From Candidatus Latescibacterota bacterium (GTDB taxonomy: Bacteria; JAAXHH01; JABIQT01), in contig JABIQT010000256.1 in assembly GCA_018667995.1 (NCBI GenBank), positions 1 to 10,768 on the forward strand: DNA of 10,768 nt, given 5' to 3'. Both the position numbers and the translations under genes were made by a program. Shown one piece after another: positions 5,412 through 9,890 of the stretch (the stretch's first letter is position 1; every line of letters starts with the position of its first letter). The notes under the pieces are model-generated. The model was not told the origin of the DNA. It made no database searches and saw only the letters and a program-made list of their open reading frames with translations.

Positions 5412-5417
5412 ATTATA
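5412..5417 (-). promoter_or_regulatory. Candidate -10 box for comEC
   Basis: On the minus strand a perfect TATAAT lies 8 nt before the comEC ATG at 5403 and contains the TAA stop of the sulfatase pseudogene. No good -35 box lies at 16-18 nt (CCATTG or CATTGG are the best). Transcription from it would begin almost at the 5403 ATG, giving a leaderless message, or leave a leader of about 70 nt if M25 is the true start. Confidence 0.35.
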
Positions 5418-6835
5418 GCAAGTTGGGTTGTTCCCAATGGAGAGGCCTGTCAAAGTCAACACCTAGCCCGGGCCTACTGTGCCCCTGAGCAACTATTCGG
5501 GAAAGATCATCTGTCAATCTAGCGACAAGATCGCGTCGGTACTCGTAGAGGTCGTTCTCCTCCGCTATATCGGTATGAAGGTCGTACAACTAAATGGTGG
5601 AGAACCAAGTTCTAACGCAGCCTCATCGATAGAGTTACTCCACCCGCAAGACCCCGGGCAGAATTCCAGTTTCCAGTTGCCCTACCAAATCGAGAACATA
5701 GCCGTGATTGATTGTTGTACCGCCGCCGTTCGCTGGGAGTCGCCGACCGCCGTATTTCCAGTAAAAAGAGGCACGGTACTGATGGTGTAGGCACCAGTGT
5801 TTTCAGGCGAATGAGTACTTGGAATCTCTGCAATTATTACCATAAAATCTGTGAGACAGATGGTTACATCACAGGTTGTTGCCGCCGGGACCGCCTCCAG
5901 GCACCTGACCACGTATGGAATTCCGTGGACACCCTCGAAGGTACCGGCCCTATGACCGCGAAAGTGGTAACTGGGGGGGATGTTCTTATGGATGCAGGAA
6001 TTCGACATCTGCCATTGGTGAACAACCGTTGTCACTCGCAAATATGAAGAGATTATTCTCGGCGAGACCGGGTCAGTTCTTTGACGATCTGTCCGACTGA
6101 CCAATCGCCCTGAGGTAGAAGTCGGCATAGCTGTTTAGACCACTTCGGCCTCTGAGGTCGGCCATGGCGACGAGGGGTGTATGCGGTGCACTAGATGGTA
6201 AATATAAGAAGAGTGTGTTCGTAGAATCAGATCGAATAGAGATATTCTCTATTGCGCGTTCCGTGATATCCGATAGTACGCCCACTGCAGCATATCATGA
6301 TGTGCCGGACCAGGGCGGTTTGGCTCCAGGAACGCATTAATTTCATTGGGCACGCCCATGAACCGGCCATCCTCTATCTACACATAAGGCGCATATCTAG
6401 GGACGTGGAAATCCCAAAGAACCGGCCAAACCCCATTGAGTTGGGACCATTCTGGATCAACCCAGTCCAATCAACGTTTGTTTCGCTTTCGTCACCGACG
6501 GCAGACCGCCGTCGATGGTTGGCAAATTCGTACCCATATGCCACTTACCGAAACAAGCAGCTGCTATCACACACAGTACGCCACTCTTCATCGGAGTGCG
6601 CCAACAGTATCGTCTGGGCATCAGCGGATACCGAGATGACGTGCAAACTGACGAGCAGGCATGAGCATTTGTGAATACCATGCCCTGTCTGGCGATCTGA
6701 TCAAGGTATTATGTTCGAATCCGAGATTCATGGTTAGGGCGGATCAGGTCACCGAATCCCATGTCGTCAACCAGGATAAATACCATGTTCGGTCGAGAAT
6801 AGTCCGCTCGGACGGAAACTGTTTGACTCGTTCAT
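5413..6835 (-). pseudogene. Degraded arylsulfatase (type I sulfatase) pseudogene
   Basis: No open frame survives here, but a sulfatase can be read in order by changing minus-strand frames. N-terminal metal site R-P-N-M-V-F-I-L-V-D-D-M-G-F-G-D (~6735-6792); formylglycine region C-S-S-V-C-T-S-S-R-Y (6628-6657); G-K-W-H-M-G (6532-6549); N-G-P-N-S-M-G-F-G-R-F-F-G (~6425-6463); F-L-Y-L-P-S-S-A-P-H-T-P (~6175-6215); F-A-S-D-N-G-C-S-P-M-A-D (~6005-6045); a T-F-E-G-V-H-G-I-P segment (~5905-5945); W-K-L-E-F-C-P-G-S-C-G-W-S (~5635-5675); and L-Y-D-L-H-T-D-I-A-E-E-N-D-L-Y to the stop (5413-5590). Breaks include a TAA at 6709-6711 and at least five frame changes. About 30 residues usually found between the G-V-L and G-K-W-H motifs are missing. 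The signature C-x-P-S-R reads C-T-S-S-R, and the following T-G-R is P-R-R. Neighbouring genes are intact, so random sequencing error is an unlikely cause. The apparent start is ATG 6835 after TGAGG. Confidence 0.88.
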
Positions 6836-6887
6836 CCTCAGAAGACGCCGTCGAGGATGGAGCGTCGCTTGAACGTTAATGAATCAC

Positions 6888-6915
6888 AAAAAAAGGACTC
6901 GATATAGCCGAGTCC
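6888..6915 (-). terminator. Rho-independent terminator after the ABC ATPase gene
   Basis: Read on the minus strand, GGACTCG pairs perfectly with CGAGTCC (6915-6909 with 6901-6895) around a 7-nt loop and is followed at once by seven T. It lies 33 nt past the stop of the ABC ATPase gene, so it should end that transcript before the sulfatase remnant. This is the clearest intrinsic terminator in the window. Confidence 0.85.
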
Positions 6916-6947: not shown

Positions 6948-7652
6948 CTAATCAGTAGTCACGACTACTTCATCCAACGCAACTTCGCCATCATGTAATT
7001 TGACTACGCGTCTGCTATGGCCAGCTATGTCTTCTTCGTGCGTTACAAGAATAATCGTATGGCCGTCATCATTGAGACGATCGAATACTGCCATGATCTC
7101 CTCACCGGTCTTGCTGTCCAGATTTCCGGTCGGCTCATCGGCAAGGATTATAGACGGTTCATTCACAAGTGCTCTGGCAATCGCCACTCTCTGTCGTTGC
7201 CCTCCAGACATCTCGTTGGGCTTGTGATGTACGCGATCACCCAAGCCGACTGATGACAGGGCCTGCATTGATCTTTCTCGTCGTACTTTTCCGGGTACCC
7301 CGCGGTAGATCAGGGGCAATTCTACGTTGTGAAGTGCATCGGCACGGGGCAGCAGGTTGAAGGTTTGAAACACGAATCCAATTTCCCGATTTCGTACATG
7401 TGCCAACTCGTCATCGGACATTTGACTTACCTGCTTGCCGTTAAGTTCGTATCCGCCGCTTGTAGGAGAATCAAGACAACCGATGATGTTCATCAGAGTA
7501 GATTTTCCTGAGCCGGAAGGACCCATAATGGCGACATACTCTCCCTTTTCAATGATTAACGAAACTCCACGAAGGGCCCGTACCTCTTCCATACCCATCT
7601 GATATGTCTTCTCCAGATCGGTGACGTAAATCATATGCTGATTCTGTGTCAT
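6948..7652 (-). CDS. MacB/LolD-type ABC transporter ATP-binding protein
   Basis: A 234-residue cytoplasmic ATPase of the family that drives MacB, LolCDE and FtsX-like permeases, which move lipoproteins, peptides or antimicrobials by mechanotransmission. All motifs are present: Walker [10 protein letters not shown] at 44-52, Q-loop Q96, signature MSGGQ at 148-152 (usually LSGGQ), Walker B I-I-L-A-D-E-P at 168-174 with catalytic E173, D-loop near N177-L-D, and switch H205. The segment [10 protein letters not shown] is typical of this subgroup. Length is normal. No permease or periplasmic adaptor gene is next to it: downstream is a terminator and a pseudogene, upstream a 193-bp gap and the MshEN gene. 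It must pair with a permease elsewhere or be a remnant. The ATG at 7652 lacks a Shine-Dalgarno, and an in-frame TGA sits three codons upstream; M7 (codon at 7634) is an alternative start. Confidence 0.92.
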
Positions 7653-7845: not shown

Positions 7846-8037
7846 TTAACCCGCCATCTCTTCCATCTGAATCTTAACTATTTCATCGCGTTGTAGGCGA
7901 TCCAGAAAGCCAAGTCTTACGGCCGTTTCGCCCAATCGTTCCACGCCCTTTTTCTGTTGGCCTAGAGCATTCTCCAATTGATCGTCTGTAATAAAGCCTT
8001 CATCTACCATAATCTCGCCAATGCGTCTGCGCGTCAT
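7846..8037 (-). CDS. Stand-alone MshEN domain protein, putative cyclic-di-GMP receptor
   Basis: The 63-residue product consists almost only of an MshEN (T2SSE_N) domain, normally the N-terminal regulatory part of type II secretion and type IV pilus ATPases, where it binds cyclic di-GMP. The family pattern is two 24-residue motifs, R-L-G-x2-hydrophobic pair-x2-G ... L-x3-L-x2-Q, joined by five residues. Here motif 1 runs R5-Q28 (R5, G7, G14, L21, L25, Q28), the linker is 29-33, and motif 2 runs R34-Q57 (R34, L35, G36, G43, V54, Q57). Spacing matches exactly. The only weak position is R50 in motif 2, where a leucine is usual. No ATPase domain follows: a TAA ends the frame after A-G, and the next 190 bp are non-coding. 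The ATG has a good ribosome binding site, AAGGGAG, 8 nt upstream. Family membership is clear; cyclic-di-GMP binding is inferred. It is divergent from the redoxin gene. Confidence 0.8.
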   Translation of the reverse strand: MTRRRIGEIMVDEGFITDDQLENALGQQKKGVERLGETAVRLGFLDRLQRDEIVKIQMEEMAG

Positions 8038-8060
8038 TGTGCCTGCTCCCTTCCGACCGA

Positions 8061-8117: not shown

Positions 8118-8154
8118 TAGTATATAATCTACTATGCCGGTAGTACATTGGCAA
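8118..8154. promoter_or_regulatory. Possible divergent promoter core with three TAGTA-type half-sites
   Basis: TAGTA (8118-8122), its inverse TACTA (8130-8134) and TAGTA again (8141-8145) sit about one helical turn apart. They surround a TATAAT (8123-8128) on the plus strand, preceded by weak -35 options near 8101-8109. On the minus strand TTGCCA (8154-8149), 17 nt, then TAGATT (8131-8126) is a possible promoter for the MshEN gene. Individual boxes are imperfect, so this is a tentative call. Confidence 0.3.
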
Positions 8155-8957: not shown

Positions 8958-9890
8958 ATGCACCGCCCTGAATGGTTGAAAGTTAGACTTAAGCAAGGTC
9001 CGAATTTTACTGAACTAAGGCGACTTGTTAATGACAATCAGCTAAACACAATCTGTGAGAGCGCACAATGTCCAAATATCTGGGAGTGTTGGGAACAGCG
9101 AACGGCCACCTTCATGATACTTGGTGATGTTTGTACTCGTAGTTGCGGCTTTTGCGCGGTCAAAACTGGACGGCCCGACGCAGGACTAGATTGGGATGAA
9201 CCGGAAAGGGTTGCAAAGGCGGTGAAGCAACTTGGATTGAAGTTCGCCGTCATAACATCAGTAAACAGAGACGAACGCACCGACGGTGGTGCGCCAATCT
9301 TCGCGCGAACGATTAGAGAGATCAGAAGTTGCTGCCCGGATACCGGGATTGAAGTCCTTATTCCCGATTTCAAAGGATCCTATGAATCGTTAAGAATAGT
9401 GCTGAATGCGAAACCAGAATTGCTGAATCACAATTTAGAGACAGTCCCCCGTCTCTATAGAACCGTTAGGCCACAGGCAAAATACGAGCAGTCTATCGAA
9501 CTACTACGTAGAGCGAAGGAATATGGGGCAAGAACAAAAACAGGCATAATGGTCGGTCTTGGTGAATCCATGGATGAGATTCGTACTCTTATGGCAGATG
9601 TGGCAGGTATTCGTTGTGATATTTTAACTATCGGTCAGTATCTACAACCAACAAAATTACACTTGCCGGTAATACGGTACTATGAACCTGATGAGTTTTT
9701 ACAAATGAAAGCCTTTGGGGAAGAACTTGGAATACCGCATACAGAATCGGCTCCTCTGGTCCGCAGCTCGTACCATGCGGCGAATCAGGCTAATCTATTT
9801 GAAGCCCCGAAGGGATCACCTGTATCAAAACTGATTTCAATAGACCAAAACCCCAATGCCCCTAAAATCCCTACTGCAACCAAGTTATAA
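8958..9890 (+). CDS. lipA: Lipoyl synthase
   Basis: LipA is a radical SAM enzyme that inserts two sulfur atoms into the octanoyl chain bound to the lipoyl domains of 2-oxoacid dehydrogenases or the glycine cleavage H protein. The auxiliary 4Fe-4S cluster, the sulfur donor, is bound by C33, C38 and C44 (C-x4-C-x5-C). The SAM cluster is bound by C59, C63 and C66 (C-T-R-S-C-G-F-C). The C-terminal R-S-S-Y-H-A at 269-274 supplies the serine that completes the auxiliary cluster. T-A-T-F-M-I-L-G-D and L-N-H-N-L-E-T-V are further family signatures. Length (310) is normal, including a short polar tail after residue ~280. ATG 8958 has GAAGGA 7 nt upstream, and M-H-R-P-E-W-L-K is a usual LipA beginning. 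No lipB or H-protein gene is in the window; the neighbours are the redoxin gene and the rRNA operon. Confidence 0.97.

Follow-up and report, generated by a model that had tools for sequence, protein, structure and literature searches.

The window analysed here is a stretch of 10,768 nucleotides, an entire contig of a Candidatus Latescibacterota bacterium. On its minus strand, at 7846..8037 (stop codon included), lies the gene of a small free-standing MshEN_N protein of 63 residues, which was recognised by its open reading frame, its orthologues and a match to NCBIfam NF053729, and whose translation is MTRRRIGEIMVDEGFITDDQLENALGQQKKGVERLGETAVRLGFLDRLQRDEIVKIQMEEMAG. A Shine-Dalgarno-like AAGGGAG (8046..8052, minus strand) is found 8 nt ahead of the ATG, and GGAGG-type sites precede the start in each of three relatives, which bears out the preliminary description of a 63-residue frame with a ribosome binding site of its own. 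The two MshEN half-motifs of that description are likewise present. When compared with the consensus of PMC5013675, half-motif 1 runs from R5 to Q28 (7954..8025, minus strand) and half-motif 2 from R34 to Q57 (7867..7938, minus strand), each of 24 residues, with the five residues KKGVE as a linker. The key residues are in place in both motifs (R5, G7 and Q28; R34, G36 and Q57). Motif 1 had been called complete, which is not strictly the case, as I6 stands for L and M10 for L/V/I. In motif 2, R50 does replace a core leucine, but it is not the only departure, since A39 and V54 differ as well. The set of guanine-stacking leucines is therefore incomplete: I6 and V54 are conservative replacements, whereas R50 is not.

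The next gene downstream, in the window's genome and in the three relatives alike, encodes an orphan ABC transporter ATPase of the MacB/LolD-like type (6948..7652, minus strand; PF00005, 118.8 bits). The window and the relatives G011 and G013 share the order TPR/peptidase, ComEC, ABC ATPase and small gene on one strand, followed by a redoxin gene on the opposite strand; lipA comes after redoxin in the window and in G011, while the G013 contig ends there. The third relative, G001, keeps ComEC, the ABC gene and the small gene, which are then followed by nuo-like genes. In G010, which belongs to a genus without the small gene, ComEC and the ABC gene persist, and a sigma-factor-like ORF is situated between the ABC gene and redoxin. 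Two other parts of the window deserve mention. Between ComEC and the ABC gene there are 1.5 kb (5413-6880) with no plausible gene, where short minus-strand frames read, by judgement, like pieces of a sulfatase and have no Pfam match; as ComEC and the ABC gene are close neighbours in G011, G013 and G001, this stretch is possibly an insertion that has decayed. A 16S rRNA gene is cut off by the end of the contig (10129-10768), as is often seen in metagenome assemblies, and this gene is the only Rfam match in the window.

The orthologues are 61–63 residues long and 72–81% identical to the window protein (G011, 81%; G013, on contig CAJXCW010000103.1, 79%; G001, on JACQVL010000334.1 of Candidatus Latescibacterota, 72%). 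The start and stop regions are the same in all four genomes, none of which has ATPase-like sequence 3' of the small gene's stop codon. Differences from the window copy at codon positions 1, 2 and 3 number 12/5/38 in G011, 12/3/40 in G013 and 16/4/40 in G001; most pairs are saturated at synonymous sites, which precludes an exact dN/dS. This is a conserved, selected gene of 61–63 codons for amino acids. All four proteins retain the key R, G and Q residues, with one exception: in G013 the second-motif G at position 10 is replaced by S. Three of the four share R50, where G001 has I50, and an R recurs here in distant MshEN domains (7 of the 89 distinct copies have it, in a sample of loci that is biased to the best matches and includes these orthologues), so that R50 seems to be a stable variant and not a sign of decay. 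An origin from a phage or plasmid was considered and rejected: no relative was found in viral contigs, and matches of 33–34% came only from three unannotated phage records and one plasmid glycosyltransferase.

The family assignment relies on NF053729, a 53-position model of an MshE-related c-di-GMP motif domain with a curated cut-off of 38 bits. The search against the MshEN family proposed in the preliminary description gave a match above this cut-off (55.4 bits, E 3.8e-15), and the orthologues score between 54.6 and 58.9 bits; PF05157 ('MshEN') was not among the Pfam matches of the protein, and FumaraseC_C and DUF4388 matched below cut-off. Among solved structures, Thermus PilF and Vibrio cholerae MshE (5HTL) are closest in sequence, and phmmer aligns residues 3-50 to the latter with an E of 4.7e-9. 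AlphaFold2 with a shallow input of one or three sequences returned a hairpin and one long helix (pTM 0.47–0.51) and no four-helix bundle. The likeness to the MshEN_N part of V. cholerae MshE (PMC5013675) lies in the two 24-residue half-motifs and the 5-residue linker. However, the MshE bundle is a piece cut out of an ATPase, whereas the window protein is a whole protein in nature and carries A39, R50 and V54. The same holds for the assembly ATPases PilB, GspE and MshE in general, where MshEN is followed by the ATPase in one chain; the window protein has no ATPase part.

NF053729 is found in 317 of 384 genomes, and nearly all of the best matches listed belong to long frames, with several hundred residues each. 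When a profile was built from three of the free-standing proteins, scores of at least 77 bits were confined, among the matches listed, to members of this order, the next best being at about 51 bits. As these listings were ranked by score, free-standing proteins may also occur elsewhere. G011 has a second MshEN protein (L039, about 9588-9776 of the minus strand, G011:C118), readable as 63 residues from an ATG, MPAIHHRIGEIMV..., with 59.0 bits to NF053729, a 4-residue linker and R at the stacking position. In the distant genomes G296 and G138 there are MshEN-only proteins of about 120–126 residues with several half-motifs (L128, 2974-3372, minus strand; L129, 2502-2882, plus strand), which, judged by their sequences, are other free-standing forms of the domain. 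The 120-residue protein of G296 also has R at the stacking position and a matching IQMEE tail. Two short frames were not counted as analogues: one of 66 residues in G198 has DYYGAPWLK at its C-terminus, possibly the beginning of the next subdomain of an ATPase, and one in G296:C2 ends inside motif 2.

Whether such a protein can bind the ligand alone may be judged from studies of related domains. In PMC5013675, the isolated MshE bundle (residues 1-62) is reported to bind c-di-GMP at 0.35 µM, which means that the MshEN_N fold can work alone. The domains GSPII-A, -B and -C of Thermus PilF (PMC11731258, PMC12002112) have the same motifs, and trimmed N-terminal pieces can bind c-di-GMP alone. Unlike the 63-residue protein, they are located inside one ATPase, where a C-terminal subdomain affects binding. 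For GSPII-A, measurable binding depended on the R that starts motif 2 and the Q that ends each motif; a G at position 3 of motif 2 was required for high affinity, and replacing Leu by Ile at both motif-2 stacking positions caused only a 2.4-fold loss (PMC12002112). Both motifs of the window protein contain the R, G and Q that proved essential in that study, and binding of c-di-GMP would thus be expected. The affinity is uncertain, as motif 2 departs at A39, R50 and V54, and an effect of R50 on affinity, suggested in the preliminary description, is plausible.

The connection with c-di-GMP is strengthened by gene content in 16 genomes of the order, which are all those sampled from the phylum. 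NF053729 and GGDEF matches occur together in four (G000, which is the window's genome, G001, G011 and G013), and neither occurs in the other 12; HD-GYP (PF13487) is split in the same way. Presence of the small gene therefore exactly matches that of GGDEF and HD-GYP genes, although the 12 negatives (G002-G010, G012, G014 and G015) are one genus, g3, and the co-occurrence may reflect a single loss event. In 11 of 12 GGDEF domains examined, the active site GG[DE]E[FI] is kept and is preceded, at a distance of five residues, by an RxxD site. None of the 16 genomes gave an EAL match. PilZ was matched once each in G011, G013 and G015 and is absent from G000 and G001. The window's genome has no further NF053729 match, the small gene being a single copy. 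As it lacks PilZ and EAL matches as well, the 63-residue protein is its sole receptor candidate among the families tested; with a genome 85% complete, these absences are provisional. The 12 genomes of g3, without a match to GGDEF, EAL or HD-GYP, seem to have lost a c-di-GMP metabolism that relatives in the same family kept.

Taken together, the protein is probably a four-helix bundle of the MshEN_N type that occurs naturally on its own, binds one c-di-GMP molecule and acts in trans on a partner as a small receptor or adaptor. The ligand would be held between the two half-motifs, if fold and binding are as in MshE, and its binding would change the contact with a candidate partner, for example the linked ABC ATPase or an ATPase of a pilus or secretion system. 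The diffusible adaptor of the preliminary description is plausible. A parallel is offered by small PilZ-domain adaptors (PMC8389850, PMC10912698), in which a small separate protein acts on a partner in c-di-GMP pathways; the parallel is one of working only, since fold and binding motif are unrelated. Several points count against a receptor: R50 in place of a guanine-stacking leucine, the off-consensus A39 and V54, a co-occurrence that perhaps goes back to one event, and the AlphaFold2 models without a bundle.

The same motif 2 departures, with R50 inside the guanine-stacking cluster, could instead point to a bundle that has lost the binding of c-di-GMP and has a role in protein–protein contacts only, as do the N-terminal domains of XpsE and Xanthomonas citri PilB, which are degenerate. 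Degenerate MshEN domains are common (PMC8389850, PMC5013675). This reading is nevertheless considered unlikely, as the gene is absent from all genomes without GGDEF and the key R, G and Q are retained in the four orthologues, save for the serine of G013.

A special case of the adaptor is a local regulator that, when bound to c-di-GMP, controls the neighbouring orphan ABC ATPase, the two genes forming one unit. The pair stays on one strand in four genomes, including G001, where the other neighbours have changed. Consensus scans of the window revealed a candidate promoter (TTGCCA-17-TAGATT; 8126..8154, minus strand) about 90 bp ahead of the start codon, no terminator-like site in the gap between the two genes, and a terminator-like hairpin with a T-run after the ABC gene (6895..6915, minus strand). 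All such sites score only about two standard deviations over shuffles. A similar TTGCCA-17-TACATT is found at a similar distance upstream in G011, and by the same scan no such pattern was seen in G013 or G001. A two-gene transcript is therefore possible. On the other hand, the gap of 192–320 bp is wide for an operon, no terminator was seen after the ABC gene in G001, and G010 has the ABC gene without the small one. Control of this ATPase remains a rather improbable form of the adaptor.

It is very doubtful that the protein is a passive buffer of c-di-GMP without a partner, the titrator of the preliminary description. A binding domain with almost nothing else, encoded by a single gene copy in the window's genome, would suit this role, but buffering would need high expression, and the surface residues KKGVERLG and KIQM, which lie outside the ligand motifs, are highly conserved, suggesting a role beyond ligand binding. 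Hardly credible, and rejected, is a broken N-terminus of a PilB/GspE gene: the domain is usually the N-terminal part of such ATPases, but the boundaries of the gene are conserved across the four genomes with the same neighbours, no ATPase sequence follows, and substitutions fall mostly at third codon positions, so the frame is free-standing as originally proposed.

For the receptor or adaptor acting in trans, the ATPases of the window's own genome may be relevant. PF05157 has four matches there, each in an ATPase-like frame and covering its alpha/beta part. Two of these frames (C640 and C831:1387) begin without a bundle recognisable by a home-made profile, and contig ends truncate the remaining two. 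A split arrangement, in which the bundle would act in trans on the genome's own ATPases, is allowed rather than shown by these sequences. The wider proposal, that the c-di-GMP output of this lineage passes chiefly through one diffusible 63-residue MshEN_N protein that supplies in trans the bundle lacking in its pilus or secretion ATPases, is a speculative one with the odds against it.

The MshEN domain itself is known. In the literature searched, which was covered in part, no free-standing MshEN protein was found described, and the stand-alone architecture seen here is probably that of a c-di-GMP receptor. The protein gives genomes that have c-di-GMP synthesis genes and no PilZ match a defined candidate receptor. 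Should the protein bind c-di-GMP, it would be a receptor of very small size for this messenger, and the MshEN bundle, which is known from pilus motors and synthases as one of their integral parts, would also work as a separate protein.
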